This document shows positions 3,809-38,400 of a stretch of DNA of 46,512 nt, one piece after another. The DNA is taken from positions 11,583-58,094 of the forward strand of contig PBSO01000006.1 of NCBI GenBank assembly GCA_002726275.1, given 5' to 3'. Below the pieces are notes generated by a model, which had not been told where the DNA came from, made no database searches, and saw nothing but the letters and a program-made list of their open reading frames with translations. Source of the stretch: Methanobacteriota archaeon. GTDB taxonomy: Archaea; Thermoplasmatota; Poseidoniia; Poseidoniales; Thalassarchaeaceae. The stretch's first letter is position 1. Every line of letters begins with the position of its first letter. A program made the position numbers and the translations under genes.

Positions 3809-4975
3809 ATGAGCATGGAGGACGGGGGGCCAGTAGCTTCTGAAGTTGAAGGTCGAACCACTGGGCTAGTTAGATTGTCCGAAATTGAACTCCCGACCAG
3901 ACTGGGAGAGAGGTACGATTTTCTAGGAATTGTTGACACATTGCTTCAACAGGCCTCTTTTCACATTAGGACATCTAGAAGGTTATGGGGTGTCAATGAG
4001 GCGTCCGTATTACTCCTTGCTTCGGCATCGATCATTCTAGGATCATGGGACTTTGGAATCGGCGAGCTTGCCGGTGGTGGCGACTGGGGGAGGTCTGGTA
4101 TTCTCGGTGAAGACAGTGGCTTCCTCCACCTAAACGAATGGACTAGGATGCTCTCTCTACTCTCGGCAATGGCGTGGATATCATCGATCGCCCTACTATG
4201 GATCAGATTTCCGATTATGAGAGAGAATTTCTTTTTCCTTATTACAGGCATGTTCGCAGTTCAACTTGGATTCATATTCTCGCATGCCAGTTCACCAGAT
4301 TTTCCCTTCAATTCAGAAATTTCTGACTGGGGAGGAGTGGTTTTCTCGAACCTCATTCTCCTCTTTATTTGTTGGTTTGTTGTTCATAGAGCAGTAGTGG
4401 AAACCAGAGACGTCCATGTTGAGGAGAGGCACGCCCACCCCGATCCAAGAGTCGTGGAGAAAGCATGGGAGGATCACAAATTACACGCTTGGAGTTCAAG
4501 CCTTGCAATCTGGGCCGTCCTGATTAACGTCATGTCATGGTCGGGATCGCATGCCATAGCAGATAGGCCCCCAATAGTGGATGGGGTATTGGGCTATTCC
4601 TTGTTGTTTGTTTTCTCGGGAATAGCCTCCTACTTCTTCCTGCTGCACGTTCTATGGTACCCGCACTTCATGCTAGGAGGCGGGGAACATCAGATATGGT
4701 CATCCAGAGCAAGAGAGGTCGCAGGAGAGAATTCATCATCCGTGGCGCAGAGCATACAGGGAAGTTGCCCTGTCTGCGGAGGGGAGACCCCTGTGACTAA
4801 GAGGCCCTCGGGGAAGATCGAGGTTCGTTGTTCTGACCCTGAATGCAAGGGCCAGGGGAAATCGGGGGATGCATGTGTCAAGTGTGCGACTATTCTTCCC
4901 TCGAGGGTGGTATGCCCGTCGTGCAGCTCGAATACCACTGTGGTCAGCCACTTCTCTAAGTCTGAGGCTTGGTAA
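3809..4975 (+). CDS. Multi-pass membrane protein with C-terminal double zinc-ribbon
   Basis: ORF 3776..4975; ATG at 3809 preferred over TTG at 3776. Several hydrophobic helices, then CPVCGGE..CSDPECKG..CVKCATILPSRVVCPSC. Confidence 0.75.
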   Translation: MSMEDGGPVASEVEGRTTGLVRLSEIELPTRLGERYDFLGIVDTLLQQASFHIRTSRRLWGVNEASVLLLASASIILGSWDFGIGELAGGGDWGRSGILGEDSGFLHLNEWTRMLSLLSAMAWISSIALLWIRFPIMRENFFFLITGMFAVQLGFIFSHASSPDFPFNSEISDWGGVVFSNLILLFICWFVVHRAVVETRDVHVEERHAHPDPRVVEKAWEDHKLHAWSSSLAIWAVLINVMSWSGSHAIADRPPIVDGVLGYSLLFVFSGIASYFFLLHVLWYPHFMLGGGEHQIWSSRAREVAGENSSSVAQSIQGSCPVCGGETPVTKRPSGKIEVRCSDPECKGQGKSGDACVKCATILPSRVVCPSCSSNTTVVSHFSKSEAW

Positions 4976-6330
4976 AACCAAGGGGTGGTGATTCTTTGGT
5001 GTGGCCCGTCCTAGGAGTAATATTGGATCAAGAGAATGGGTTGGTTAGTCACACTCCATCGGAACAAGATAGTGAGATTGTTGAGCGAGAAGGTGCTGAT
5101 GCATTTCGGGATGCTTTGCCGTGGGTAATAGGCGTAGTTTCGGGATTGGTCATTTTTCTCAGCATCCTAATTATCGGGCTATGGGCATGGGCCCAGATTG
5201 AGGATGTCCAGCTTGGAGGGCCCCCCTCGTCACTCCTTACTTGGGAGGATCAATACCGGGAAATGACAGGGATCGATGATGTCACCGAGTTTGATGGAAC
5301 TGGCATCGATTTATGCATTGTAGATACTGGAATAGATACCACTCACCCAGACCTGAGAAATGCGAATGTTGTCTCGTGGAAGGACTTCATTTCTGACATG
5401 CAAGAGCCTTACGATGACGAGGGGCACGGAACCGCGATGTCCGGAATCATTGCAGCCGATGGGAGTCTGACTGGAACATCGCCCGGTGTTTCCCTAATAG
5501 TTGCGAAAGCGATTGGCTCCGACGGCTCGGGAACCGATTCGGCGATTGCAGAGGCAGTGGACTGGTGCGTCGACGAGGGGGCTGAGATAGTCTCGCTCAG
5601 CCTAGGTGGTGATCAGGGATTCGGCTCCGGGCTCTTCAGCACTGACTCATTGGAGCAAGCCGTGGAAGGTGCGATTGAAGAGGGTGTTTTCGTTGTTGCA
5701 GCTGCAGGGAACGATGGGGATGACGATGATGGAGATGTCGAGTCACCTGGCTCTGTCGAGGGTGTCATCTGCGTTGGCGGAATTACCAGAACGGGGGACA
5801 TCTGGTCGGGAAGTTCGCAAGGGGACAACAATGGGAGACTATGGCCGAACCCCATACTCCCTCGTCAAGACCCAGACAGGAAACCCGAGATTGTGGCACC
5901 CGGTCACGAAGTACCAGTTCTGATGGCCAGTGGGATAGGGAACGGGGCCTGGTGGGGCTGGTCTAGTGGCACATCAGCTGCTACTGCATGGGTCTCAGGC
6001 TCTATCGCAATTCTTCTCCAGGCTCATCCAGAATTACAACGGGGCGGGGTGCAAGGAGGAGAGGGTGCAATCGATGATGTCAAGAATAGGATTATGGAAA
6101 ACTCGCAGATGAAAGATGGTCAGAGTGGTCACGATGATCATTATGGATATGGTCTCCTAGATATTGACGCGTTAATCGACTCATTCGGAAACACTAGTTC
6201 TGAAGGTGAAATTGGGATTTACACGGGACCTACAGGGCCATGGGAAAAACTACTGGTAGAGAAGAGTCAGGTTGCACGTCGAACCACGGCAAGGGTTCCC
6301 CCCGTGAGTTCGACGAATGCTAGTGTGTGA
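4969..6330 (+). CDS. Membrane-anchored subtilisin-like serine protease (S8 family)
   Basis: N-terminal TM (WVIGVVSGLVIFLSILIIGLWAW). Catalytic motifs DLCIVDTGIDTTHPDL (Asp), GHGTAMSGIIAA (His), VVAAAGNDG (oxyanion Asn), SSGTSAATAWVSG (Ser). Confidence 0.9.
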   Translation: MVKPRGGDSLVWPVLGVILDQENGLVSHTPSEQDSEIVEREGADAFRDALPWVIGVVSGLVIFLSILIIGLWAWAQIEDVQLGGPPSSLLTWEDQYREMTGIDDVTEFDGTGIDLCIVDTGIDTTHPDLRNANVVSWKDFISDMQEPYDDEGHGTAMSGIIAADGSLTGTSPGVSLIVAKAIGSDGSGTDSAIAEAVDWCVDEGAEIVSLSLGGDQGFGSGLFSTDSLEQAVEGAIEEGVFVVAAAGNDGDDDDGDVESPGSVEGVICVGGITRTGDIWSGSSQGDNNGRLWPNPILPRQDPDRKPEIVAPGHEVPVLMASGIGNGAWWGWSSGTSAATAWVSGSIAILLQAHPELQRGGVQGGEGAIDDVKNRIMENSQMKDGQSGHDDHYGYGLLDIDALIDSFGNTSSEGEIGIYTGPTGPWEKLLVEKSQVARRTTARVPPVSSTNASV

Positions 6331-12077: not shown

Positions 12078-12114
12078 CATATTGGCTCAGACCGTAGGTC
12101 TGAGTGAGAATATG
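12078..12114. promoter_or_regulatory. Inverted repeat in the rpo7 / giant-protein divergent intergenic region
   Basis: CATATT-GG-CTCAGACC-GTA-GGTCTGAG-TGAG-AATATG: perfect 8-bp inner and 6-bp outer arms. Confidence 0.5.
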
Positions 12115-12157
12115 GGGCGAACGTTCAAGTGGGTTACGAAAACCAAATTGGACTCTG

Positions 12158-15100
12158 ATGACGGTAGATGCTGGCAACAAACCCCCCTCCAATAGGGCTG
12201 GAGCGACCTTGGCTGTTTCGATAATGCTGGTCATGTCACTATCTCCAATGCTCATCATGATGACGGATGGAGACGCACTGAATAAAGACTCAGGGGGAAT
12301 GATGACTTCCGTAGATGAGCCTTGGTCTGATGGCGATCAGCCATGGCCACAGCCGGGAAGGACACCGGATAGGGCATCAGTCCCCCCTCACCATGTCCAT
12401 TCCACCGATTCTTCGACAGGGGGCCTCCTGTCGATTGTAGATCCTGCAATTAACTGGGAGTTTGGTTCCGATCAATTAGGCACCGACTCTCTCGGAACGC
12501 CAATTGCTGATTTCTCTTCATCCTTGACCACTGAACCATCCTCTGAGGAGAGGTGCGGAGGAGACTCACTCTACACAATCCTCGTGCAAACAGACCCTTC
12601 ATCCAGTGAAAGTCACATGAAAATTATCGAGGGCGAAGACTCAGATTTAGCGTGGGAGGTGAGCCTTGGGACGACAGAGATGATCAAGTCCTCGCCCGTG
12701 GTTGTGGATTTGGATGACGATGGGAAGCCAGAGGTAATAGTTGCTTATGACCAAAGTGGGACCCTTCATGTTGATGCATGGTCACCAAGGCTATTCTGCT
12801 CGGTTACCGGATGGGACCCCGGTGCAGGTAGTTCGCAGCAACCAATCTGGACATGGGAAGAAGACGACTTGATGATAAGTGGAGACCCTACAAGCACCCT
12901 GAATGGACTTGGTGGCCATAGGCCAACAACTCAACCTTTGCTTGCGGACTTGGATCTTGATGGAGATGCCGAGTTAGTTCTGGCTACGATTAATGAGAAT
13001 AGTGGGGACCCGGTTGTTGTAGCACTAAGCCTCCCCTCGAGCGGGACTCCCTCTACACTTTGGGAGAAGACACTAGACAAGGGGAGTCATCCATCGGACC
13101 CAGCATTTGCACAGACAGATGAGAATACCGGCTATGTTGTCCTGACCACCACTGAACACACCAATGGCGGAATGTGGGTTTGGAGACTTGATTCGACTTC
13201 CGGAGATTCAGGATGGGATGGGCTTAGTTTGAGTAATGTGGACGGAGACTCTGACGTGCCCCACATCAGACTCCCAGGACCCGTAGTAGCAAATCTGGAT
13301 GCCGATGAAACCCCTGAAATCGTTGTTACCATCCCCACTGATGCAGACGGATCTAACACCATAGACGGTGCTGAATTCAGAGGACTAGAGATCAGCACTG
13401 GTTCTGAAATTTGGTCATTTCAGGCAGAAAATGGGTATGCTGACGCACCCCCCATTGTTATCGATACAGATGATGATGGCACGGTAGATAGGGTCTGTTG
13501 GGCCACTTGGTGGCAGACGGCAACAGCTAGACATGGGGTCACTGGCTGTCACGATGTAGATGGCTCTAGTCCAGAGGAGGCTTGGCACCGAGACCTTGAG
13601 CAGAGTAGCGGCGCCCCAAATGACGAGATTGCGGTCTCTCCGCCCTTTTGGATGGATATTGATGGTAGCGGCGAGCCTGAGCTTCTGGTCGCCTACGGTA
13701 GATCCCTTTGGGCGTTCGATGGATCTGAGGGTACTGGATCTGCTATTAACACCGATTGGACCAATGAACTGGAGCTGAATCATCGAACTTGGTCAGCTCC
13801 CGCGATGGCCGACATAGATGGCGATAGGACCCTTGACATCGTCATTGGAAGTAGTGTTGTATCACTTGAGAGGTCTGACGTCAGGCCACTTCTTGATGGC
13901 GGAGGTATAGAGTTGGATCCAACTGCCCCTAGCCCCGGAGAGGAGGTGACTGTGTCTGCATTTATCGAGAACTCTGGGACCGGACCCATAGATTCGGAAT
14001 TCGATGCGGTCCTCTATGCTGACGGAATAGAAATAGGAAGGAGGACATTTACCTCGCTAGAGCCTGTTGAGCCATCGGGATCGGGGTCTTTTGACACATT
14101 CAGTGTTGAATGGTCGGGCCCCCTAGGAGATCATGAGTTCGTGCTGGAGCTAGATAGCTTTGGGAACTTGACCCAGACTAGGACGGACAATGATATCGCT
14201 AGCAAAATAGTGTCTATCGTGCCCACGTATAATGCAACATTCGAAATTCCAACTGAGCCCGTCAGAGTGTCTCCTGGAAGTAGCACTACATCTAGCCCCT
14301 CCGTTAGATCCACGGGAAGGCTCGCAGGGACGTGGTCACTCAGTGTAGATGGTTCTGAACTTCCAGAGGGTTGGACCTGGTCTGACTCCACCCAGGGAGG
14401 AATCAGTAATATCGAGATCGGAGTGGGTCAGACATGGTCACCCGACATTGTCATCACAGCCCCATCAGAAGCCCTAGGTTCGGACTCTGGATACCTATCT
14501 CTGACACTAACTCTTGATGAGGACTCGAACGTTTCTGTTTCTGCAAACCTTCCAATTGAGGCGAATAGGACAAGGGGGCTCTCACTTAGGGGGCCGGACG
14601 GAACGGCACAGAGTAGTGGATATGGGCTGCCAGGGCAGAATGCAGAATCATGGTTCATGGCCGAGAATCTAGGAAATGCCGAAGAAGACCAAATTCTTCT
14701 TTCTTGGGATAGCACTTCCTGGGGTAATGACCTACGACTACACGATACAGGAGGTTCCGAAAGGTCGGCATTGATACTGGGCCCTGGGGAGAAGCTGGCC
14801 CTAGTGGCAACTCTCGATGTCCCCTTGGATGCCCCTGCAGGAGATTCAGTTAGCACACCCTTGACAATGTGTGTTGGCACGGGAACGGAAGAAGAGACAT
14901 GTCAAACTATCCAATTGACCTTCCATTCCTCAAACGTGGTTTCTGGCAATCACATCAGAAGTGTCCCCTCGAATGGACTTGAATGGTCTGTGATTTCTGA
15001 AATGCCCTCCGACAGCGGGACTGTCACATGGTCCCTTTCTGAAATGGGGATGGCGATGCCAGGGTGGTCTTGGGCGGGAACTGGTGACCTCTCGGTTTCG

Positions 15101-17827
15101 GGAGACTCGGTAATTATGTCCGGATCTCCAGGAGGGACCTCTTCGGGCTCTATTGTTGCTAACCTGCCCGAAGACGCTTCGCCTGCATTCCACTATTTCT
15201 CAGACACGAGTCAAGAGTCCTCAGAGCACAACCTAATCATCACATTGGAGGTTTTGCAGATTTTCAGATCAAACTTGACCGTGATTTCACCACAAGTTCA
15301 GCCATATCTGGTTGAAGTGGAGGAGGGTTCCCTCGTAGTCCTGAGGCTCGAGAATCCAGGAAATGGTGGGGACGAATACTCCCTTGACTACTCGGTGGTA
15401 CTGGATTCCAATATTACCAGTGACCCGGGCGTAGATGTGGAGTTTTCAATTGGCCAAGTTGGACTGACTTCCGGAAGCCTGACCACCATTCCAGTAACTG
15501 TAACCCTCCCCGAAAGCACACCTGCAGGAGTGCCCTTGTGGATTGAGTTCACTGTAACTTCCCTGGGGGATCCCGGAGTATCATCGACTGATGCCGTAGC
15601 TCTTGAAGCGAGGCAGGACCACAGATGGGATATCGTCGCTAGCTTCAATTCAACTCCGGTAGCCGAGGGAAGTGTTTTCATCGTTGATCCGGGCGATTCT
15701 TTCTCATTGGATGTTGATGCTACCAACATAGGCAATCTGGCAGATGACATCATTCTCGAAGTGATGACCGCATTGGACCTAGTGGAGGGCGATAATTCTC
15801 TCGGGTGGGCCTCCACAGGAGACTCGGAGGAAAATGTTGGAGTGAATCAGACTGTTTCACTTAGCATCGATTCATCCATTTCTGCGGAATCATGGAGTGG
15901 CTCATCTATGGCTGTCACAGTCACAGCATCTTCTCAGGGAGAGGTGGTTTCCACATTCTCATTCACAATTGAGTCGGCTCATGTCCCATCATGGAACGCT
16001 ATGGCTGACCAAGCGAATCTAGAAATCGACCCTTTCGGTTCGGAAATCCAACTTACAGTAGTACAGGATGGCAACTCTCCCACGAGGGCATATACATCGA
16101 TGTTCATCACTGGTGAGTCTGGTTGGCAGGTTGATGAGCCAGAGGACCTCCCTGTCCTTTACCCGGGTGAAACAGCCCCCCTAATCCTGAACATCACCCC
16201 TCCTCAGGATGCCATCTATGGAAGAGCTGTGGAGCTTAATCTTCGTCTAAGGGAGGGAGACTCTAGTGTTGTTTCCGAGATAGTTTTCCCACTCAGAGTT
16301 GCAGTCACGCACGACTTCTCCCTATCCGGGGAAGGTGATTGGCTGGTTAGCAACTCGGGAGGGCACCCCCTAGCGATGCTTGAGAACCTTGGAAATGCCC
16401 CCACGACCATCTCATTGCAAGTTCTGAGCCTCCCACTTGATTGGTCCGTATCAGGTAGAAGCGAGGTGGTTCTCGGAGTCGGAGAGATTGTTGGAGTCCC
16501 CTTGGAGTTGATTCCTGATGAAGGCTGGGACGGCAGTGTGAAGACGATCAGAATATTGGCTGAGGACTCAGAGGGGAATCAACGTGAAATCAACCTTGAT
16601 ACCGAGCGAGGAGGCTTTTCTTGGGCCACCTCGCCAGTTATTATCTCGACCAGTGGAGATCACGCTCTGCTCGGAATCCATAACTCAAACTCCGACTCGA
16701 TTGTATCTGACTCCGATTCAGGACTTCTGGAATGGAACGATTTGGGTGGTTGGTCATGGCCTGCCACCACAAGCGGAATTGGGGGAGTTTCGGTTTCCTC
16801 TAGCTCCGAAACTGGATATTTACAATACAAGTCGATTGTAGTTATTCCACCGACCAGAAATGCGAATTGTATAATCTATGGGACGGTAAATGAAATCTCT
16901 GCCAGTTGCTCCATAAACAATGGAACGTCACCTTTCGCATACACCTTGATGCTAGTTGACGACCTAGGAAACATGATGGGGTCGCAATCTGGAACAGTTG
17001 GAGCTAATTCTACCGGGGTCGTCAACATGAGCTCTTCCGACTGGTCGCCCTCTCCAGGAAATAGGGAAATCTCAATCAGATTGTTGGACTCGAGGGGGAT
17101 TCTTGTAACCTCGAACTATCAGAACTTTGAGGTCCGGAGGAGTGATTGGAACGTCGGACTCGTTCAATTGGAACTAGACGGTCAGGGCGCTAGTCAGAAG
17201 ATTGAGATTTCGACAAAAAGAGATAATCATGAGTTGCTCCCAGTCGGCACCCAGTGCGTCATTTCAATTGTAGTAGAGGGGCAATACTCCTCTACTCACT
17301 TGGTCGACATGACTACGACAAATGCACTTGCCCCCAAACCTTCCATTGACAGGCCGGACGTTGACGACGATGAGGAGCTCGTGGCCACCATTAGCTGTAG
17401 CTTCCCTTGGGATCAGGATGCGGATCCTTCCGACGATGAGGCCAGAATAATACTCTCTGGTGGCGAGGACATTGAAATTGGAATTAGCGATTCAAGTACG
17501 GCAATTGCAGCGGCGGCAATCGTTATTGGCGCATCAATAGCGATATCCTGGATGATTAGCAATTACAGGGAGGGCAAAGAAATGATGGAGAAGGCTCGTC
17601 TTGCAGTTGAGAAGAAGGCGATTGAGAAGAGGGCCTCTATCGAAGAAAGTAAGAGGTCTGAACCAGTTGACTCATCGGAAGAATTGAGTGAGGGCATGCG
17701 AGATGAGATGGCTGATACCGAGGCCAAAGGAGCTGAGAGGGGGCCATCAGAAGATACTCCACCTGTTGGACACGCCGATGACGACTCATTCGAGAGTCGC
17801 CTTAACAGGCTAACGGGCGACAGGTAA
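12158..17827 (+). CDS. Giant secreted protein with FG-GAP/VCBS-like repeats, CARDB-like domain, C-terminal TM and charged cytoplasmic tail
   Basis: ORF 12104..17827; ATG at 12158 precedes the signal peptide. Repeated VVDLDDDGKPEVIVAY / LLADLDLDGDAELVLA / FWMDIDGSGEPELLVAYG / MADIDGDRTLDIVIG. CARDB-like PSPGEEVTVSAFIENSGTGPIDSEF; TM TAIAAAAIVIGASIAISWMIS. Confidence 0.85.
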   Translation: MTVDAGNKPPSNRAGATLAVSIMLVMSLSPMLIMMTDGDALNKDSGGMMTSVDEPWSDGDQPWPQPGRTPDRASVPPHHVHSTDSSTGGLLSIVDPAINWEFGSDQLGTDSLGTPIADFSSSLTTEPSSEERCGGDSLYTILVQTDPSSSESHMKIIEGEDSDLAWEVSLGTTEMIKSSPVVVDLDDDGKPEVIVAYDQSGTLHVDAWSPRLFCSVTGWDPGAGSSQQPIWTWEEDDLMISGDPTSTLNGLGGHRPTTQPLLADLDLDGDAELVLATINENSGDPVVVALSLPSSGTPSTLWEKTLDKGSHPSDPAFAQTDENTGYVVLTTTEHTNGGMWVWRLDSTSGDSGWDGLSLSNVDGDSDVPHIRLPGPVVANLDADETPEIVVTIPTDADGSNTIDGAEFRGLEISTGSEIWSFQAENGYADAPPIVIDTDDDGTVDRVCWATWWQTATARHGVTGCHDVDGSSPEEAWHRDLEQSSGAPNDEIAVSPPFWMDIDGSGEPELLVAYGRSLWAFDGSEGTGSAINTDWTNELELNHRTWSAPAMADIDGDRTLDIVIGSSVVSLERSDVRPLLDGGGIELDPTAPSPGEEVTVSAFIENSGTGPIDSEFDAVLYADGIEIGRRTFTSLEPVEPSGSGSFDTFSVEWSGPLGDHEFVLELDSFGNLTQTRTDNDIASKIVSIVPTYNATFEIPTEPVRVSPGSSTTSSPSVRSTGRLAGTWSLSVDGSELPEGWTWSDSTQGGISNIEIGVGQTWSPDIVITAPSEALGSDSGYLSLTLTLDEDSNVSVSANLPIEANRTRGLSLRGPDGTAQSSGYGLPGQNAESWFMAENLGNAEEDQILLSWDSTSWGNDLRLHDTGGSERSALILGPGEKLALVATLDVPLDAPAGDSVSTPLTMCVGTGTEEETCQTIQLTFHSSNVVSGNHIRSVPSNGLEWSVISEMPSDSGTVTWSLSEMGMAMPGWSWAGTGDLSVSGDSVIMSGSPGGTSSGSIVANLPEDASPAFHYFSDTSQESSEHNLIITLEVLQIFRSNLTVISPQVQPYLVEVEEGSLVVLRLENPGNGGDEYSLDYSVVLDSNITSDPGVDVEFSIGQVGLTSGSLTTIPVTVTLPESTPAGVPLWIEFTVTSLGDPGVSSTDAVALEARQDHRWDIVASFNSTPVAEGSVFIVDPGDSFSLDVDATNIGNLADDIILEVMTALDLVEGDNSLGWASTGDSEENVGVNQTVSLSIDSSISAESWSGSSMAVTVTASSQGEVVSTFSFTIESAHVPSWNAMADQANLEIDPFGSEIQLTVVQDGNSPTRAYTSMFITGESGWQVDEPEDLPVLYPGETAPLILNITPPQDAIYGRAVELNLRLREGDSSVVSEIVFPLRVAVTHDFSLSGEGDWLVSNSGGHPLAMLENLGNAPTTISLQVLSLPLDWSVSGRSEVVLGVGEIVGVPLELIPDEGWDGSVKTIRILAEDSEGNQREINLDTERGGFSWATSPVIISTSGDHALLGIHNSNSDSIVSDSDSGLLEWNDLGGWSWPATTSGIGGVSVSSSSETGYLQYKSIVVIPPTRNANCIIYGTVNEISASCSINNGTSPFAYTLMLVDDLGNMMGSQSGTVGANSTGVVNMSSSDWSPSPGNREISIRLLDSRGILVTSNYQNFEVRRSDWNVGLVQLELDGQGASQKIEISTKRDNHELLPVGTQCVISIVVEGQYSSTHLVDMTTTNALAPKPSIDRPDVDDDEELVATISCSFPWDQDADPSDDEARIILSGGEDIEIGISDSSTAIAAAAIVIGASIAISWMISNYREGKEMMEKARLAVEKKAIEKRASIEESKRSEPVDSSEELSEGMRDEMADTEAKGAERGPSEDTPPVGHADDDSFESRLNRLTGDR

Positions 17828-19426: not shown

Positions 19427-20404
19427 TCAGTCTTTCCTGGCTGCTTCATTAACTATGAATATCAAGAGAATGAAAATCGCAATTATTCTCAAATCAAAAT
19501 TCGATTCGGCATCTTGCGGCCCATGGGGGCTGAACAAATTAGCAACATTGGAAATTTCAGGAGACTCGGAAGATGAGACTATCACAGTTCCACCAACATG
19601 ATAGGGGGAGGATGTAATGAATCCACCTGGAATCATGTCTGCCGTCACCGAAGCCATTGCAATATCGCAAAGGTCAGATTGAGTTAGATCGCTGAGCACG
19701 TTTTCGAATACCCCACTGTCGTGACTATAAAGGGTCAGCTCGACCTCATAGTGGCTTGCTATACTGTTTGTAATCATCTCAGCCATATCGACCTCGAATC
19801 CAACCAATTCATCATTATCATCAATCCCGGTCATAGAGGACTCTTGGTCCAACATGCAGACTCCCAAATCAGTATCCTCATACAGTATCCTGTGCAGTGT
19901 TCCGCCCTCTGTTGGTGTGGGCCATGCGTCCTCGTACATCTCAAAATTTGAGGATTGTAGCTGAGGGAGGTCCGCGAACCATAGTTGGTGAGTCGAGAAT
20001 GCCGTGCCCCTCTGAAATATGTCCGCTAGCGCAGAATTAACTGCGTACCTTAGCTCATCATTTCCGCTTTCCTGAGAACTGTCGGATCTAATCATGGCCA
20101 CGAAATAATCCGAAATATCAAACATGTCGAGTACGGAAATCGTTGACCACTGCGCGATCATCTCGGAATCGGTCAGTAAGTGGTGTGGGCCAATAACATA
20201 GTCGACATTCCCATCCCTGAGCGCCCTCATGGCGAAGGGGACATTCTCGTACTCAATCTCCTCTAGTTCGGAGTTTTGCGCTATGAAATGCGAAGATTCC
20301 TCTCCAGCAATAGTGCCTATTGAATAAACTGACTCACCTGATGCCAGAACCCATGAAGAGGAAATCAGGATCGGGACGATTAGAACCGCGGCAAGCCCCC
20401 TCAT
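19427..20404 (-). CDS. Family-3-like amino-acid substrate-binding protein with apparently permuted lobe order and C-terminal TM anchor
   Basis: Signal peptide (MRGLAAVLIVPILISSSWVLASG), then lobe-II-like GTIAGEESSHFI..ALRDGNVDYVIG..NSALADIFQRGTAFSTHQLWF, then lobe-I-like GVCMLDQESSMTGIDDNDELVGFEVDMAEMITNSI..LCDIAMASVTADMIPGGFITSSPYHVGGTVIV, then TM LRIIAIFILLIFIVNEAARKD. Confidence 0.8.
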   Translation of the reverse strand: MRGLAAVLIVPILISSSWVLASGESVYSIGTIAGEESSHFIAQNSELEEIEYENVPFAMRALRDGNVDYVIGPHHLLTDSEMIAQWSTISVLDMFDISDYFVAMIRSDSSQESGNDELRYAVNSALADIFQRGTAFSTHQLWFADLPQLQSSNFEMYEDAWPTPTEGGTLHRILYEDTDLGVCMLDQESSMTGIDDNDELVGFEVDMAEMITNSIASHYEVELTLYSHDSGVFENVLSDLTQSDLCDIAMASVTADMIPGGFITSSPYHVGGTVIVSSSESPEISNVANLFSPHGPQDAESNFDLRIIAIFILLIFIVNEAARKD

Positions 20405-20489: not shown

Positions 20490-22673
20490 ATGCACGAAGC
20501 GGAATCTGGACTTCCCAAAGCAGCAGTCGGACAAGGCCTGGCCAGAGTTGTTGCTATTGCTGCGGTGGTTCTTCTCATGGCCGGCTCAACGCCCGGACAA
20601 GCGAGTGGATTCACAAGTGGTTGGGAAGTCGTTGAAAGCGGAACCTCAGAGGACCTTCTCACGGCTGCCCATTTTGGTGACCAAGTTTGGGCATTTGGCA
20701 CAGGCGGCGTAATTCTCAATAGTATTGACAACGGGATTTCCTGGGAAAATACAGATTCGCCAACGACGTCTGACATACGCCACTCAGACTCTGATTTTGG
20801 ATCTCTAATTATATCGGGGGATTCTGGATTGGTGCTTCTGAAGAGCAGTGTTGATGATGAATGGACGGATATCTCCCTTCCCGAGGATTCGCAAGTAAAT
20901 GGGGTATCCCTGACTGGTAGTCAGGGCGCCATAGCCGTAGGCAATAATGGAACTATTTGGGAGTTGGAGGATGGAGAATGGACTGAGATTAGTCTATCTA
21001 TCGAAAGTGACCTACTGGGAGTTTCATTTATTGATGAAAATCTAGGAATTGTGGTTGGTTCCGGTGGGACGATTCTTTTCTCCAGTGACGGAGGTGAGAA
21101 CTGGGAATATAGAGAGGCGCCTGAGGGAGCAGGTGATTCGGATATTGTATCTGTTGAATTCTACAGTCCTACCCGGATATATGCCATCACAGATGATGGC
21201 AGTATCCTGATATCAATGAGCAATGTAGTTACTGGTACTGATGTAGGTTATGTGTGGACACTGGTAGAGTTCGAAAGACACTATCCCCCAGGAACCAATG
21301 AATATATTCTAGGTCCCGAAAACCTGGATGTCGAATTGACTTCAGTAGAAGTTGTTTCGACCTCAAAGTTACTGATGACAGGGGCCGGGGGTTACCTCTC
21401 AATGAGTATTAACGGCGGGACCATCGTTTCGCAGCAGATCAATCCACTTGGCAACGAAACCAGCTTCAATGGAATTGTTATGGTGACAGGGTTCACTGGA
21501 ATAGCAATTGGAGATGGAGGTTCCATCCTATGGACAGATAATGCAGGTGCGGATGACCAGGTCGGTTTCGTGGTCCCTGAATATGGAAACTTTGGAGTCT
21601 TCGTAGACGAGACGAAGGAGATGTTCCTTTCTGGGTTCATTGCGACATTGAAGATAGTCGCATTTGGAATTGTTCTAGGTTTCTTCCTAGGGATAACCCT
21701 AGCTATGTGCAAAACCTCTCCAACATCTCTGAGGTATATTGTGGAACGTTATGAACCTCGATACGTCAGAGTAGCAGGAATTCCCATCCTAGGGGCAGGG
21801 ATTTTCCAGATATACTCAGCAATTCCCGGAACTACTGATCTAGGATTGCAGGGGATTGAGTACATTTTCCTACCCGTCGGTGCGCCAGAATCATTCCTGA
21901 GGATTCTACTTGGCATTGCTCTGACATTCGTGGGTTTACTATTCCTGAGCAATGACGGCGAGTTTGCTAAAATTAGAATTAAGTCGATATCATTGAATCC
22001 TTGGAGGGTGAGGCCTCTAAACACTATAGCGACTGTATACACGGACTTCTTCCGCAATACCCCCTTAATTGTTCAATTCTTGTTCATTCACTTTGGAGTT
22101 AGGCTAGGGGCACTTATTCAAGGGCCCGGCCTGGACATCTTTAGCTTCGAGAATATAGGGGGGAATCACAATTTCATAACAGATATATTCGCTAGATACG
22201 ATTATTCAGAATCAAATTATGGAACACTAATTGGGGGGGTGCTGTATGATTCTGCGTTCATCAGCGCGATATGTGCCCTTGGTTTCAATTCCGGCGCATA
22301 CCAGTGTGAAACCATAAGAGGTGCAATTCAGGCAATTCCTTCTGCACAGATGGAAGCGGGAAGAAGCATTGGATTGACCTACCTTCAAACGATGCGGCGA
22401 GTAATAATGCCCCAAGCAATTAGGATATGCATACCCCCAATGGGAAATGAAATGGTCAACTTGGTTCTAAACTCATCCCTAGCGATGATTATTGGATATG
22501 CAGAACTCACACGACAGGGGAAGTTGATTGTTGCAAGTACCTTCCAATACGCATACGCTTGGGGAATGGTTCTGATATCCTACTTCGTGGTAACCTGGAC
22601 CCTCGCACTTTTCCTCAGGTGGATGGAAGAAAAAACCAGAATACCAGGGCTGGGGATGACAGGAGGTAACTGA
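20490..22673 (+). CDS. Fusion: signal/TM plus Ycf48/BNR-like beta-propeller plus polar amino-acid ABC transporter permease
   Basis: Residues ~40-360: TSGWEVVESGTSEDLLTAAHFGDQVWAFGTGGVILNSIDNGISWEN.. GIVVGSGGTILFSSDGGENWEYREAP.. TGIAIGDGGSILWTDNAG. Residues ~370-727: FLSGFIATLKIVAFGIVLGFFLGITLA.. YTDFFRNTPLIVQFLFIHFG.. SAQMEAGRSIGLTYLQTMRRVIMPQAIRICIPPMGNE (EAA loop). Confidence 0.92.
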   Translation: MHEAESGLPKAAVGQGLARVVAIAAVVLLMAGSTPGQASGFTSGWEVVESGTSEDLLTAAHFGDQVWAFGTGGVILNSIDNGISWENTDSPTTSDIRHSDSDFGSLIISGDSGLVLLKSSVDDEWTDISLPEDSQVNGVSLTGSQGAIAVGNNGTIWELEDGEWTEISLSIESDLLGVSFIDENLGIVVGSGGTILFSSDGGENWEYREAPEGAGDSDIVSVEFYSPTRIYAITDDGSILISMSNVVTGTDVGYVWTLVEFERHYPPGTNEYILGPENLDVELTSVEVVSTSKLLMTGAGGYLSMSINGGTIVSQQINPLGNETSFNGIVMVTGFTGIAIGDGGSILWTDNAGADDQVGFVVPEYGNFGVFVDETKEMFLSGFIATLKIVAFGIVLGFFLGITLAMCKTSPTSLRYIVERYEPRYVRVAGIPILGAGIFQIYSAIPGTTDLGLQGIEYIFLPVGAPESFLRILLGIALTFVGLLFLSNDGEFAKIRIKSISLNPWRVRPLNTIATVYTDFFRNTPLIVQFLFIHFGVRLGALIQGPGLDIFSFENIGGNHNFITDIFARYDYSESNYGTLIGGVLYDSAFISAICALGFNSGAYQCETIRGAIQAIPSAQMEAGRSIGLTYLQTMRRVIMPQAIRICIPPMGNEMVNLVLNSSLAMIIGYAELTRQGKLIVASTFQYAYAWGMVLISYFVVTWTLALFLRWMEEKTRIPGLGMTGGN

Positions 22674-24781
<2,108 letters not shown>

Positions 24782-28997: not shown

Positions 28998-29477
28998 ATG
29001 ACATGGAGGAGAGTGGAGATAGACATCTCCGATGAAGGCGAGGGAGGCGAGACGTCACATCCGAGTTCGTCCCTTGGCCTCGATATTTCTGCCTCTGAGT
29101 CGCATTCACAGTTTTTAGCCGAATCATCGCACATCTCCGAGGTTTCAAGAGGACATGAGGGCTTTCTCAACCAGGTTGGAGTAATCCCTGAGTCGTCAAA
29201 GATGGCTTCTAATGAGATACTTCCAGTTGGCGAACTAGTTGCCGATCTTGGTGGTTCGGTTAATGGCGACTTCATGGAAATACCGATGCCATCGACAGAT
29301 AGGAGAGACGTGGTCCTGGAGGTCATGGAGGGAGAATTGGGGAACTTGGCCAGAATAATGTCGCCAAGTTCTTTCGGTGGAGTACTGAGGACTTTCAGAC
29401 TTCCATCTGGTTCCATTATTTCCGGTGCGACTTGGAATGGCCATACATTGGGGCTGTCACTGGAGAATCACTCCTGA
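28998..29477 (+). CDS. Hypothetical protein
   Basis: 159-aa ORF following the helicase; its last 10 nt overlap the convergent giant gene. No family recognised. Confidence 0.5.
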   Translation: MTWRRVEIDISDEGEGGETSHPSSSLGLDISASESHSQFLAESSHISEVSRGHEGFLNQVGVIPESSKMASNEILPVGELVADLGGSVNGDFMEIPMPSTDRRDVVLEVMEGELGNLARIMSPSSFGGVLRTFRLPSGSIISGATWNGHTLGLSLENHS

Positions 29478-32400
29478 GGAACCAAGGAGGTCTCTCTTGA
29501 TGGGACCTCGTCAAGCTGGTCAATCTCCTGTAGAACTGCGCTCAGTGCCATCTGGGCACTCTCCCTATGTGGCTCTCCCAATACGTGGCTAGAGTACCTT
29601 GCCTCCTCGAAAATCCTGTCCAGTGAGAGCAGTGCCTGCTCGCTAATCGGTAGAGCGTTCCTTATTGCAAGCTCGAACTCCCTGACTGTCTCGAAGTCCC
29701 TCCTCAGGAAGCCCCTGCTCATCAGAATCTGGCAGAGTCCCTCGTAGCAGTTGAATATGGCCTCCCTAACCTCGTCCCCTGCGGCCAGGAGTTCTGCGGT
29801 GTAGCTGAACACTCCTGCCAAATCATCAATGGCGGCCTGCTTTCTCCTCCTTACGAACATCACTCCTGCTACGGCTAGACCAATCAAAACAATGGCAATC
29901 AGGGCAGTCAAAGCTGGCCCTACCAAGGATGCCCCTGCCTCTGGTTCGTACACGACGTCTACGACGGCGAACTGCGAGAGTCTGGCAGCGTCTATCGGAT
30001 CTATCAGATCCGAGTCTGAGCTGAATTCCACCGATAGTTCGCCCCAGAAGGCCCTATCCCACAGAGGGTGGTTCTCGTGGAATGACTCGAATTGGTAAGT
30101 GAAAATTCCATTCTGATCGGTGACACCCACCACAGTGAAGTGAGTGGCTGTCTCGTTTACCAGCCTCGCTGTTATGGAGACTCCCTCTATGGGTTGTATA
30201 CGGTCCGTCGCTGTGACATTCACCTTTCCAGACAGGGAGCTTTCCCCGATGCCAAGATAAAGTTCGTCCGGCAAGAACTCAAAGTTGACTGGTACCTTAA
30301 TCACGACCTCGAAATTAATCACGCCGCCATTGAGGAATCTTGAGGAGTCTGGATCAACAACCAATGACATACTGGCAATTCCGGGAGGCATGGTCGATAT
30401 CGCGTTTGACTCCACTAGGAATTGGCCGGTTGTTTCGTCCCATGTGATTTTTGTATTTGGCCTGAGTGAGTCCTCCCAATATAGGGAAATTTCCATCTCC
30501 TCCATAGTATTCCCCTCTCCCCCGATCTCAATAATCCTGCCAAGGACCCTGATTGGCCTATTCCCATCGCTTCTGACAACCTCATCCTCTAGGAATAGAA
30601 TCTCAATCTTTACATCGGCCCTTGTATAGACAGTGGCATTCACAGAATTTGCTAGGTACAACTGCTCTCCTGAGAATACCAGTGAAACATCGTGGGAGCC
30701 CCTAGAGATCAGATACCCAAGTTCGTGACTGATGCTGAATGTTCCGTCTATACTGGTAGTGATGGTGGAGATGACCTCTCCATCAAGTAGGAATGACAGT
30801 TCCCTGCCCTCCAATCCGGGATTTCCCGCTGAGTCTGCATCGAATAGCCTCCCAGAGAGGTTCCATGATCCACCCCGAGTGACCACGTTGTTCTCCACCT
30901 GCAGGGTCATCCCAGTATGATACGCTATTGTGAGGTTCGCTTCAACGGATCCTTGACGGTGATATCCTTGGTCGGGTGCAATTACAGTGAGGGAGTGTTG
31001 CCCGACATCTAGGAACTCTGAGACCACCCAGGAGTGTGCCCATTGGCCATTTTCATCGGTTGTAGTTGTGCCAATCAGTATTCCGTCGATGAAAATCTGA
31101 AGAGAGTGATTCTCGAGCCATCCATTTGGCAGATTGTCCTTGACATTACCACTGAGCTTCAGAACATCTCCGACTGCAACAGGATTGGGTTGTTCTATTT
31201 CGACCTCGACAGGTCCGAATACTGTGAAAATGGTGGTTGAGTTTGAGGCGATAACGAACTCCTCGCCGCTGAATTCAATTCTAACGTTCCTAGGCCCTAG
31301 TGGCATATCTGGTGGAACGGGGAAGAACAGACTGAATGTTCCGTTATCTGAGACTGACAGTGAAGTGAGGAATTGGTCGTTCATGTAAACGTCAAGTTCT
31401 CGGCCGGGGAGGACTCTGCCAGCACCATCAGTTAGCATCCCCTCAATAAGTAGGAGTTCGTTCCTATCTATCTCCCCGGGAGGCGTAGTTAGGACTACCT
31501 GCGAGGTCTGCGTGGCATTGAATTGCTCTGTTACTGTCGAAGGGAGGAAGTACTCGGGATTCAGGGAGTCGCCCTGCCCCATTGGATCGACCCAGGTAAA
31601 TCCTCCGAGGAAGTCCACGGTGAGAGTGTGGGCTCCATAGTCAGTGTCCAGTGGGAGGTCGTATGTAATGCTCCAAGCCCCAGTTGATGCGTTGGAAATT
31701 GAAGTGTACAAAGGACCGACATCTATGCCATCTATTGAGAGGTGGACCACTCCGCCCTTTTCCTCGCCATTCTCGATCAGTGGTGCACCGTGCTCATCCA
31801 ACAGGGTTCCAGTGAATGTTACTGACTCGCCTGCTATGGCCGAGCCTGTTACTGAGGTCACTTCGAGTACAGAGGGTGCAAGTATTACCACCCTTGTCCA
31901 TGTTTCATCGCCAAGCAACCCGGTTGAGCCATTGAATCCTGCGAATGTAGCAGTTATTGTCATCGGCCCCGGTGCCCTGTTTTCGTCAGTCTGAATTGAG
32001 GTTGTAAGTATGCCACCCTCATCTGTGAATCCTGACCACGATGGCGCCCCATCTATCGAGACGTCTATCTGGCCTCCCGAAACGAACTGTCCTGAATTGT
32101 CAATCAAGGACATGTTCAGGGTGATGTTGTCACCCCTCACGACCCTCTCATCCGGATCCAAGTCGGCAGGAGATATTATCGAAAGCATGGAGAATCCCCT
32201 GCTATCGAATGACCCATCTTCGGAGCTTGCGCCGTAATAGTTGACAGAAGGGGTGTAAGAAGCAGTGATGTTATGAGTCCCCCTGGGGAATGAAAGATCT
32301 AGGAAAATCCTAGCTGCCCATGTACCGTTTGCATCGACCGTCCCACCAGTTACAGAGAAGGAGTTAGTGTCACCGTCAATAGCGAAGTTTAGTGTTGGAT

Positions 32401-35400
32401 TCAGAGCATTTCCCGATCTGTCCACGATTCCACTCCCATTACTGGATGTCAACGTACCACTGATGTCTAGGAACTCTCCCGCAGCTGGATTGGAGGTGAT
32501 TGGATCGAATGATATGGTTGTCGGGGACCTTACTGTGATGGTGTTGATAATTGTTGATGAAGTGTGCAGTGTGTCCGAACCGTTCGATCCATTGAACATG
32601 AGAATTATTGGAATAAGTCCCAAGGGATGCGAATGAGGTACTGAAAATGTGAAGTTGACAATTCCCTGTCCGTTTGTGGACTGTTCGGGGTTAAGCCATG
32701 TTTCGTGGAATAATGCGGAGACGGACATGTTTGCTAACTGTCTGTCTGCATCACTTGACTCAACCAATCTAGCACCGAATGAGATTGATGTGCCCCTGTC
32801 GACTATTGTGTTCAATATCGGGTTTCTGTCTGTTAATTGAGTCACGCCTCTGACCAAGATAGTCTCATTGCCCGTCCCCGTTAGGTAGAAGGGGGTGCTT
32901 CCGTTTTCCACACTTACCACCACGGTTTTCAGCCCGTTGCTCACTCCGTCCCCCAGTGGGTCTGTTGGCACCATTACAGAAAATGAGCCGTTCGCTGAGG
33001 TGACGTGTCCAGTGATTAGTGTCTCACTAGGGTCATTTAGGAAGAAGACCTCCAGGGTCATAGGGCCAGAAACTGAACGGTTCTGGTCAACTCCGTCGAG
33101 GACCTGCCCTTGTAATTGGAAGAATTGCCCAGCAGTAACTTCCGGCAAGGGGGCATTGTCGATCCTGATGCTGCTTGCAACCTGTACAGTAAGGTTGACC
33201 ATGCTCTCATTGCCTAGCCACCTTCCTGCGTCAGGAGTAGTCAGGCTGTCAGTGATATCGTCCGGTGCATGCAGTCGAACGTCGTAATACCCAGGAGGGG
33301 CGTCTGCAGGAATTGTAGAAGTGAAGCGAGCAACCCCATCTGATCCTGAAACTGTGCTATTGAGGACCTGCTGAAGAGGTCCGCCCCAATCGAAGTACAT
33401 ATCGACAGTAGTATTTTGCAGTCTCTTCGAACTCTCCACATCGGTGATGGTGGCATTAGTCACCAGTGTCTGTCCTGCGATTACGATCGACTGCAGGGGC
33501 TCGGACTCCACCACATACTCGGTCTGAATCCCAGCTTGCAGTACAACTGCCCCGGGAACAAGGTAGTATGCACCTCCAGACGGGGGGTTCTTCTCGAAAT
33601 CTAGAATGAGTCTGAGATCGTATACCCCCGCTCCCACGCCGCTTGGCATTTGGAATGTTATGTTGTATTCACCCGTTGTGTTGTCAATCCACTGCTCGCC
33701 CAGTCTGTATGTTACGGGAGGGGCTGGGAGGCCGTCCGGAGTAGGGGGTTGTTCCGAGGGAACTTCCATATTGACGATTATCGAGGAGTTGTTTCCGAGA
33801 ATTGTGGTGTTCAGGTTAATGTCCCTAGTGAATCCTGATATCCAGGATGTTTGTCCCCTCGGAGTCCATTCTGAGCCGAGTGTGTGAGTTACGTCTGCCC
33901 TGCCTTGGACTCTGACGGTGTCCAGAACACTATTCGGAAGAAGCCATGTGGAGCCACTGTAATTCAGTTGCCATGGGTAATCTCCGGCCTCGACATCGAT
34001 TGTTGGCCTCCATGTGACCATGACCCTAGGTAGTTCGGGATTCGATTGATTCCACACTAGCTCTCCATTGAAATCCAGAGTGTAGTCTCCCAAGAAGCTC
34101 GCGACTGAAGTTCCAGTATGGTCGGACAGTGTGACCTCTACCTCTGAATCGGAACCAACTGGTGCAGGATTTAGGATATAGCTGAAGTTGATACGGCTCT
34201 TTACTCCGTGCTCATCCCTGACCACTGCCTCATCTTTTGCGAATAGTCCATCTGCCTCGAATTGATACCTTATCTCGACAAGTCCCGCAGGGATGGGGAC
34301 ATCAGCAGCTGAGAATGACCAATTTACGGCGAACTGCCCCAGTGCCCCGGACCAATCTGAATCATTCAGATACCACGATGTCAAGGTGGTGAATGGCCCA
34401 TTTGCAGCAGATCTTCGCATCTGCATTGTCAAGGTTCCATTTAGTGCCTCAGGAATCGCCGACCTACTTAGGACGGTTCCGTTGAGGAAAATGGGCTGAT
34501 CGATCTCCAGTATGGTGTTGTTTTCCCCCTGTCCCTCTAGAGTCACCGTCAAGTTTGGAGCGGGCGTCAGGTTCAGGTTAAAGCCGACTGAGCTGGGCCG
34601 TAAGTGGTAGAGTGGCGTGCTTGCGTTATTGAGGTCTTCCTCATGCCAACCAAGGAAATTCAGAGTTGCGGAAATCAATCCTTCCTGTTCAGTTTCGTCA
34701 ATTGGGACTGAGAATTCGTAGTACCCCCCTGCACCGACGCTGGAAATGAGGCTTACTGGTCCATCGAAAGAGGTAGTGTAGTTGAGGACTACCTGTAGGC
34801 TGTCCAACTGTGTGATGTCGTTGTATGGCTCACTGGAAAGGGATATGTCGCCCGTAATTGTGGTATTCACCCCTATGCCAATCTTGGGCTCATCAGGAGG
34901 TTCCGGGTCATTCACCGACATTGACACGTCATCAGTGACATTCAGCTTCCATGGGAATGATATTCCCTGGGATCCGACATACCCATTCTGGTATGTGCGA
35001 AGAACGAGTGATCCGTATCCAGGATTGATCACTTCTTGGGGTTGACCAGTGATGTTGAAGGTCCCATTTGAGTCGGTAATTGCAGTACCTATGTAGTGCT
35101 CTTCGATTGCTGCTGAACCGGGGACATTCTCAGTCTGATTTGATTTCACCAGATACATGTCAATGGTGATGTTAGAGACCGTTGACTGGTTCTCAGTGAA
35201 CCTGAGAGTTCCCTCCAGGGATAGATTGCCAGACGATAGGTCCCTATCGAACCATATGGGCCCCCAGGTTTCATCCACGACCTCCACAGTTGAGAGTAGG
35301 GGGCACGCCTCGAAGGGGATCCATCCCAAATCGGCATCGCCGAGATTGGAGTTGGTCTGTAAATGGACCTCTACCCATGAGGTGAAATCCTTGCCGTATA

Positions 35401-38400
35401 CCTCGAAAGAGGTTCCCGTCCACTTCCCTCCTGAGAAACCAGTAACTTTGCGGGCAGGGATTCCTGCGGATCTGAGCATGACGGCAAATAGGGTGCTGAA
35501 CTGATCACAGTCACCCTCTAGGGAATTATTGAGGATCCAAAATGAAAGGTCGTCTTCACCATCGGCAAGGCCCACTTCCGTACCATTGTGATTTCTTAGG
35601 AAGGTGGTTGTTGAATTGCCATTAACAATGAAATCCTGTATTGCTGAGACCCTGTCCCATGCAGAGAATGCTCCTGATTCGTTGATGATGGTAGTAGTGA
35701 TTGCATTGACAAAGGCAGCAGTGTTTCCCCTCTGCAAAAATTCGCTTGGTAAGTCTGTAGCGTAGGAACTGTTGGCAAACTCGGTGGTGTTATCTCTGAT
35801 TGCCTGTGTAATCAGTACTTGTGGGGCAGTGACGAATAAGGTGTCTATGGTTGCACCATCAACAATCACGTCTCTGGTGAAATTTGAGAAATTTAGACCG
35901 GCATTGGCATCGGTCCATCCCGTGTAATTGACCGCGTTGTGAGGGGCTATTATCTCCTCGCCCGAGAAAATTAATGCTCCTGATTCCAGTGATATCTCCC
36001 AACCTAAAACCTCAGATCCGTCCCAGAACTGTTGGTCGGCGACCCCCTGTGTGGTTGAGAATCCGGGGTACATCTGCGTGTTTCCAACTAGACTGGTGTT
36101 TACACCCCATGAAATTCCCGTGTAGAAGTCATAGGTATGCCATCTCCAGTAATGAGTAATGTTGGGATCTACGCCAACCGAGGTGTTCATTGCCTCGAAG
36201 AACATCATATTGGGGTCTATGTCATCAGCGGGGTCCCATGGGTCTCCATCGGCATTTAGACAATTCATGTCCCAGAACTCGGATGTGCACTCCTGTCCGT
36301 CGGGTATTCCTCCTCCGTCAGTATCCGGATCCCTCCAATCAGTGCCCGTGGCATTCTCAATGGTATCGGGGATTCCATCGCCGTCGGTATCTACGGGATT
36401 GAGGTCGTCATTCGGGTTGTTCTGCGGGTTAGTGCCATCGAGATACTCTTGGAAGTCTGTTACTCCTCCGTTGTCGGTGTCAGATTCATTCCACAACGTG
36501 AAGTAAGTGTCGGTCGTACCATTCCCGCCGAGACTCCCAAAGGCGACCAAACATACTGTGGTGTTCTCGAAGTAATTGTTTAGCCCATCGCCATCGGTAT
36601 CCAGAAGGTTATCACAGGGGTTGCTGGGGTCAGTTTGGTTGAGAATCTCGTCCAAGTCATTCACGCCATCGCCGTCGGTATCGGACATATTCCAGTCCGA
36701 CAGAAAACCAAAGCTTCCTGTTGATTCTTCCCAATCGGCCAAGCCGTCACCATCAGTGTCGAAGTAGTCATCGTCGCAAATGGGGTCGTTGGAAAGTCCG
36801 AGAGACTGGTCCCAACACCAAGAGAAGTTGACGAACAGTACTGTTGCCGCATCGGGCGGCTTGTCGGTATCTACTCCCCTCAATGTGTCACCATTAATGG
36901 AGGTGAACCTGAAGCCGGTTAGGCTCCCGTTGGTTGATGACACGTAGAACCCCATCGGCTCCCCATTCTGCCTCCAATCCTCGGGAGTGGGGTCGAGTGA
37001 TGTGGTTTCATTCAATGTAAGTATCATGTTAGTTGAATCGAAGTCTACGATGGACAGATTCAGTGTTTGGAGAGATGTGCAGGGATCTGTACCATGGGAC
37101 GGATCAAGTTCTGATCCATCACTAATCCCCCCTCCGTCCGTGTCGGCGACATTCCACAAGGTGCACGTCATATTTTCCTCCCAATTTGGGATTCCGTCAT
37201 CGTCAAAGTCACCAGAATCCTCAATTCTGGTCGGATCTGTCTCGTTCTCATCCACTACTCCGTTCCCATTGAGGTCTTCCTCGCCGTCATCGAACTGATC
37301 ATCATCAGTATTGTTGTCACGAGGGTCAGTCGCCAGAGGGGGATCGCCATATTGGCCATTCACCTCAACTCCGTCGTCAATTCCATCGCCATCGGTATCA
37401 GGGGATGTGGGATCAGTCAACAGAACGAGGGCCTCATAGGAGTCGTTTAGCCCATCGCCATCGGTATCATTAGACTGTGGGTCAGTGGATGTAATCCCAT
37501 CTACCTCCGCCGTGAAAATCTGACAGCCTCCCGGGCCAAGTTGCAGAACTGGGTTGCACGGAGATTCGGTGGCAGTCATACTCAATGGCCCTGGTCGGAA
37601 ATACTGAGTGGGCGGAGTTGTTGTACCATTCCTAGTCCCCCATGCTGGATTCACGAACTCCTTCAAGTTGACTAGTCCGTCTCCATCGGGATCTCCGAAA
37701 GCCCCATCTTGGTTTGTACGTGATGTTGGGTCGAGTCCATTTGCCACCTCCCAACCATCGGGCATCCCATCTCCGTCCGTATCCCACCCATTGGGATCCT
37801 CGTCTATGGCCCCATCGCCATCATCGTCGTCACTGGTGCAATTAGAGTCCCCATCCCCATCGGAATCAAAATTATCCACCATTCCGTCCTTATCGTCATC
37901 AAATGTGTTGAAGCATATGTTCCCCCATGGATCTTCATCGGCCCCATCTGAACCGAGGCCCTGGATAAGTTGCATGGCGCTCTCCTCGTCCCAATTACTA
38001 ACTGGGACCGTTCCATTCCACCAAACACCATTGTCAAGCTCATTTGGAGTGTTTGTGGAGTCCCAGTTAGATGGCATTCCGAACATGAACTCATTTAGGT
38101 TGGACAGGGAGTCTCCATCGGGATCACCTGTAGAGCCATTATCTCCAGAGGGGGAAAGTGGATTCAGGCCGTACTGCCACTCCCATCCGTCTGGGAGCCC
38201 GTCATTGTCTGTATCCCAGTCTTGGGGCTGAGTGTTGATGTAGAACTCTAGTCCATACGACAGGCCGTCCCCATCCTGATCCGTAGAAGCCAACGCTTCC
38301 CAAGATGCGAACTCCAGTGCGGAGTAGGATGAGAGTAACATTAGAACAGAGAAAATAATGGCAGACCTACTCTTAGAGAGACTGTCCGAACGGGCACCAG

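Follow-up and report, generated by a model that had tools for sequence, protein, structure and literature searches.

A putatively exported Ycf48-fold propeller fused to an amino acid-type ABC importer permease, with a permuted binding protein alongside, in Thalassarchaeaceae

A single gene of the Thalassarchaeaceae contig examined here encodes a probably exported, Ycf48-type beta-propeller joined to an ABC importer permease, and the same fusion is conserved in many relatives. Within the 46,512-nucleotide stretch analyzed (the window), the open reading frame occupies exactly positions 20490 to 22673 (+) without interruption, with 727 codons of protein in a single frame, and the genome carries one copy. 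The protein runs from an export signal through a seven-bladed propeller (aa ~44 to 357) to a GlnP/ArtQ-type permease (aa ~368 to 727). Pfam recognizes both parts above its curated cutoffs: PSII_BNR/Ycf48 in two stretches (E value, 1.8e-13) and BPD_transp_1 at aa 506 to 711 (E value, 6.9e-18). The arrangement of signal, propeller and permease given in the preliminary description is confirmed.

The N terminus (aa 1 to 39; 20490 to 20606, +) is probably a cleavable signal peptide. It has a hydrophobic core at aa 12 to 30, modeled by AlphaFold2 as a helix at aa 14 to 32, and many orthologues have an A-x-A motif ending directly before the propeller (e.g., VPANA/QEYRSGW and IPAVA/QEYRSGW). With this signal before it and the first transmembrane (TM) helix after it, the propeller would lie outside the cell, where it had previously been placed. 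A signal peptide and a tether to TM1 on the outer face suit the N-out topology established for HisM/GlnP-type permeases.

The propeller (aa 44 to 357; 20619 to 21560, +) was delimited by Pfam, AlphaFold2, Foldseek and sequence searches. Over aa 40 to 357, its AlphaFold2 model reaches pLDDT values mostly of 83 to 93, with a drop to 57 to 71 around aa 240 to 280; in the model of the whole fusion (mean pLDDT, 66.4; pTM, 0.49), the propeller is confident and the membrane part poor. The best 12 PDB matches of the propeller model in Foldseek are all Ycf48/HCF136 proteins, with TM scores to the target mostly of 0.70 to 0.75, and sequence searches agree in placing Ycf48/HCF136 nearest. By these computations, the predicted fold is shown to be that of Ycf48. 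The propeller shares the seven-bladed fold and the PSII_BNR sequence signature with Ycf48/HCF136 (2xbg, 5ojr and 5oj3) but differs in its archaeal origin, in its fusion with an ABC permease, and in lacking the six-arginine patch by which Ycf48 binds D1, as defined previously (PMC10403576). Six of its 314 residues are lysine or arginine, and two arginines are invariant in Thalassarchaeaceae. A Ycf48-like function exerted through the arginine patch is ruled out by the absence of the patch; the archaeal host has no photosystem. The window's other secreted proteins share the strong negative charge of the propeller, and a special electrostatic role was rejected on that ground. Two very large secreted-looking proteins with similarly strong acidity are encoded at 29468 to 38461 (-; 2997 aa) and at 12104 to 17827 (+; 1907 aa, with FG-GAP and CARDB matches).

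By its sequence, the transporter belongs with the type I ABC importers for polar amino acids (the GlnP/ArtQ, or PAAT, kind), and its substrates are presumably amino acids. Its TM1 region (aa 368 to 408; 21591 to 21713, +), a single AlphaFold2 helix, aligns with residues 4 to 47 of ArtQ (4YMS). The core comprising TM2 to TM5 (aa 505 to 727; 22002 to 22670, +), identified by Pfam, NCBIfam and the ArtQ alignment, has the BPD_transp_1/HEQRo_perm_3TM signature and an EAA loop for ATPase contact, QMEAGRSIGLTYLQTMRRVIMP (22347 to 22412, +), with residues invariant in orthologues. In the ArtQ alignment, TM1 falls at about aa 366 to 411 and TM2 starts at about aa 505, which indicates an insert of ~93 residues predicted to include two TM helices (aa 412 to 504; 21723 to 22001, +), delimited also by the model and by orthologues. 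This insert has no counterpart in the plain permease and was not part of the preliminary description; given the customary N-out topology, the TM1-TM2 loop would face the cytoplasm. In some genera (g7 and g11; L022 and L026) the insert is much longer, giving proteins of 840 to 870 aa. Six g6 genomes (G403, G405, G408, G412, G417 and G439) have one in-frame TGA near the C terminus of the fused permease, inside the region covered by the alignment; it is probably a true stop a few codons early.

Directly 3' of the fusion lies a gene for a GlnQ/HisP-type ABC ATPase of 247 aa (22674 to 23417, +), assigned from its sequence, Pfam and NCBIfam, with intact Walker A (GSSGSGKS), signature (LSGGQ), Walker B (LLFDEP) and H-loop (VVTHE) motifs. 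NCBIfam places the ATPase nearest GlnQ (E value, 8.5e-87) and the permease nearest GlnP. Since the module contains only one permease gene, the permease is expected to act as a homodimer.

Fusion orthologues occur in 26 of 37 genomes of the same family (including that of the window), at 29 loci in metagenome-assembled genomes (MAGs) of close relatives, and in 86 of 149 sampled Thalassarchaeaceae (MGIIb) genomes. In these independently assembled MAGs nearly all are a single open frame, with exceptions where contigs end, and in no genome examined are the propeller and this permease encoded separately. The join once feared near 21590 (aa ~367, at the boundary of propeller and TM1) is thereby discounted: with full-length fusions in many independent MAGs from two orders, an assembly join or a chance fusion of two genes is virtually excluded. 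The conservation of both the fusion and the permuted binding protein described below marks them as real lineage inventions rather than assembly errors. Mean pairwise identity among orthologues is lower in the propeller (0.51) than in the permease core (0.70 to 0.85). The gene order purC, (binding protein), fusion, ATPase and gdhA, the last encoding glutamate dehydrogenase, recurs among relatives.

The fusion is absent from genera g2, g3, g5, g8 and g10 of the family and from sister family f2. When 394 Thermoplasmatota genomes were searched with a profile, it turned up in one further place, three genomes of genus g23 in family f3, which belongs to another order of the same class; from the known makeup of class Poseidoniia, this lineage is probably Marine Group III (MGIII). 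These fusions (610 to 620 aa) have both Pfam domains above the cutoff and lack the TM1-TM2 insert. In a tree of permease cores, 15 fused sequences from Thalassarchaeaceae and the three from f3 form one clade (support, 100/99) that is separate from the phylum's unfused permeases. The simplest reading of this tree is a single fusion event in the ancestor of the fused clade; vertical descent with losses and transfer would account equally for its spread between both lineages. Among 60 relatives, every PF14870 match lies inside a fused frame or in a contig-end fragment. No stand-alone Ycf48-type propeller gene was seen among them, and such a gene was rejected as a recent donor.

The anchored binding protein that had been proposed as a partner is encoded next to the fusion on the opposite strand (19427 to 20404, -). 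It is a divergent family-3 solute-binding protein of 325 aa, recognized by Pfam and NCBIfam, with a signal peptide and, from hydropathy and its model, a C-terminal TM anchor (aa 305 to 323; 19436 to 19492, -). Its halves are swapped relative to ordinary family-3 proteins, with the cut at the interlobe hinge and the anchor last. The first half (aa 25 to 144; 19973 to 20332, -) corresponds to what ordinary proteins have at their end, lobe II and the C-terminal part of lobe I, and the second (aa 169 to 290; 19535 to 19900, -) to the N-terminal part of lobe I, which ordinarily comes first. Neither this permutation nor the altered ligand site described below was noted in the preliminary description. 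The evidence for circular permutation is strong for the f3 counterpart and weak for the window protein alone. The f3 protein matches 5t0w in two segments in swapped order (residues 162 to 285 to 14 to 132 and residues 31 to 134 to 136 to 242; E value, 5.6e-23), and after reordering it gives one colinear match to 4zv1 (9 to 234 to 9 to 233; E value, 9e-28); many of its other PDB matches likewise improve on reordering. For the window protein, the best AlphaFold2 model has a mean pLDDT of 75.7 and the other four are below 50. Foldseek returns binding-protein-like folds at low TM scores, as expected from sequential alignment of a permuted fold, which lends weak support.

The amino acid clamp, defined by D10, R75 and D157 of Escherichia coli GlnH, differs between the two lineages. 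Aligned with GlnH, the f3 protein keeps D10, T70, R75 and D157. In the window protein and its relatives, the three charged positions are instead occupied by L/Y, I/M/V and P/S/T. With these residues lost, an ordinary free amino acid is unlikely to be the ligand of the window protein. The binding-protein gene is divergently oriented and adjacent to the fusion in both Thalassarchaeaceae and presumed MGIII. In the 60-genome comparison, 8 of 26 fusion-bearing genomes have an orthologue, and a few of the absences may reflect incompleteness; in many fusion-bearing genomes the adjacent gene is absent and no orthologue was found elsewhere in those genomes. The propeller is therefore not kept solely for that protein.

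A second permuted family-3 domain (SBP3) is found in fusion-bearing genera at the front of a LivK-type receptor of ~1030 aa, where it precedes two LivK domains. The SBP3-LivK gene lies upstream of genes for a fused LivHM permease and LivG/F, as at L156:3536-6634 (G006:C18), part of a Liv operon whose fused LivHM has 1246 aa; another copy, on G000:C15 (L125), is cut by the contig end. The idea that this receptor is an orphan lacking its own permease is ruled out by its place in the operon, which also gives it another obvious job. The LivK-borne domain keeps the amino acid clamp in the GlnH alignment, and its cut point differs from that of the window protein. A profile of the window protein nevertheless aligns with it through the shared junction and linker (positions 113 to 221), so that the two probably derive from one duplicated or tandem ancestor. 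Among same-family genomes, SBP3-LivK accompanies the fusion in 22 of 26, and none of the 11 that lack the fusion has it. The four fusion genomes that miss it are 69 to 81% complete, and the LivK examined in g10, a genus without the fusion, is a plain 394-aa protein without SBP3. The larger sample holds two exceptions, G291 and G419, with SBP3-LivK and no fusion. This co-occurrence is suggestive and is confounded by ancestry (six genera versus five).

These findings are tentatively explained by a docking and assembly scaffold working with permuted receptors, an account that as a whole we place a little short of probable. A single event in an ancestor of the fused clade would have given the permease its exported N-terminal propeller. 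Linked to TM1 on the outside of the membrane, at the site taken by substrate-binding domains in GlnPQ-type fusions, the propeller would be a fixed extracytoplasmic platform that keeps membrane-anchored binding proteins close to the translocation gate. Its ancestral partner may have been a circularly permuted, C-terminally anchored amino acid-binding protein, apparently still intact in presumed MGIII. In Thalassarchaeaceae this partner has either lost its clamp or gone altogether, and the transporter may be supplied by a different receptor, possibly the permuted SBP3 domain attached to LivK. The earlier suggestion of a docking platform for the anchored binding protein survives in part: a divergent companion is conserved in both lineages, but its loss from many genomes that retain the propeller-permease argues against an exclusive pairing. 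Where the adjacent protein is lost, the receptor may be the LivK-borne domain, AapJ or none at all. Docking itself and the LivK-borne partner are both proposals of this account. Its boldest form, in which the propeller recruits interchangeable permuted receptor domains, at first the dedicated anchored one and later the LivK-borne SBP3 where the former decayed or was lost, so that one receptor serves two ABC transporters, is on present evidence unlikely.

Other roles for the propeller draw on the same observations. Ycf48 and HCF136, its nearest structural relatives, are assembly factors that keep hold of freshly synthesized D1 while photosystem II is being built, and the propeller is retained where the adjacent binding protein has been lost; it could accordingly be a built-in assembly or stability factor, unrelated to binding proteins, that stabilizes the permease or helps to pair its two copies. 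Yet the arginine patch with which Ycf48 contacts D1 is missing and unfused permeases of the phylum manage without such a factor, and we regard this role as rather unlikely. Retention of the propeller in genomes without the adjacent protein, together with the lost clamp of the remaining Thalassarchaeaceae binding proteins, would also fit a propeller that itself binds substrate in place of a binding protein, at least where that gene is gone. The same genomes, however, still have family-3 binding domains elsewhere, on LivK and AapJ, presumed MGIII combines the same propeller with an apparently intact binding protein, and the propeller's negative charge, being common to the window's secreted proteins, is no sign of a cation-binding role. 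Substrate capture, raised in the preliminary description, found no direct support and seems very improbable.

Propellers are common as protein-binding scaffolds, and this one might instead anchor the transporter to an S-layer or envelope protein or to a secreted peptidase, coupling uptake to local release of amino acids. The window does encode large secreted proteins and a subtilase, but no co-conserved envelope partner stands beside the fusion gene, whose neighbors are purC and the genes for the binding protein, ATPase and glutamate dehydrogenase, and such anchoring appears quite improbable. The subtilase-family (S8) peptidase, encoded at 4969 to 6330 (+), might release amino acids that are then taken up.

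The proposed scaffold has partial parallels among known transporters. ArtQN/GlnPQ-type PAAT importers (4YMS) share the permease core, EAA loop, GlnQ-like ATPase and family-3 binding protein; unlike them, the present system carries an exported propeller at the N terminus of the permease and two additional TM helices between TM1 and TM2, and its binding protein is permuted, C-terminally anchored and encoded on the opposite strand. GlnPQ/OpuA-type importers have binding domains fused to the permease (PMC8025302) and so also join an extracytoplasmic domain covalently to it, as do L116 and L124 in this phylum, but the fused domain here is a propeller rather than a substrate-binding domain, and the binding protein is separate and tethered. 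A GlnP-type permease of G098, from another Thermoplasmatota family (L113:3528-4829), resembles the fusion in its permease family, its signal-like N terminus and its extracytoplasmic beta domains before TM1; those domains are PKD domains instead of a propeller, and it falls elsewhere in the permease tree. N-terminal additions to permeases of the phylum have arisen in parallel, as PKD domains (L113) and as several SBPs (L116 and L124). A known precedent for the permutation is TpMglB-2 (Tp0684), the naturally permuted, membrane-tethered binding protein of an ABC importer (PMC4990184). TpMglB-2 is a sugar-binding Type I/Cluster B protein, whereas the protein here is of the amino acid-type family 3, has a C-terminal anchor and was permuted independently.

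No description of a propeller fused to an ABC importer permease was found in the open-access literature, and the fusion extends the short list of domains known to be built into such permeases by a propeller that presumably does not bind substrate. The host group consists of abundant uncultured marine archaea, in which amino acid receptors are among the most transcribed genes (PMC9723583); the livK reported there as highly transcribed in Thalassarchaeaceae may be the SBP3-LivK gene. The fusion and the naturally permuted family-3 proteins provide a concrete system for studying how binding proteins are held at, or handed to, a translocator, and for asking whether a single receptor can serve two importers.
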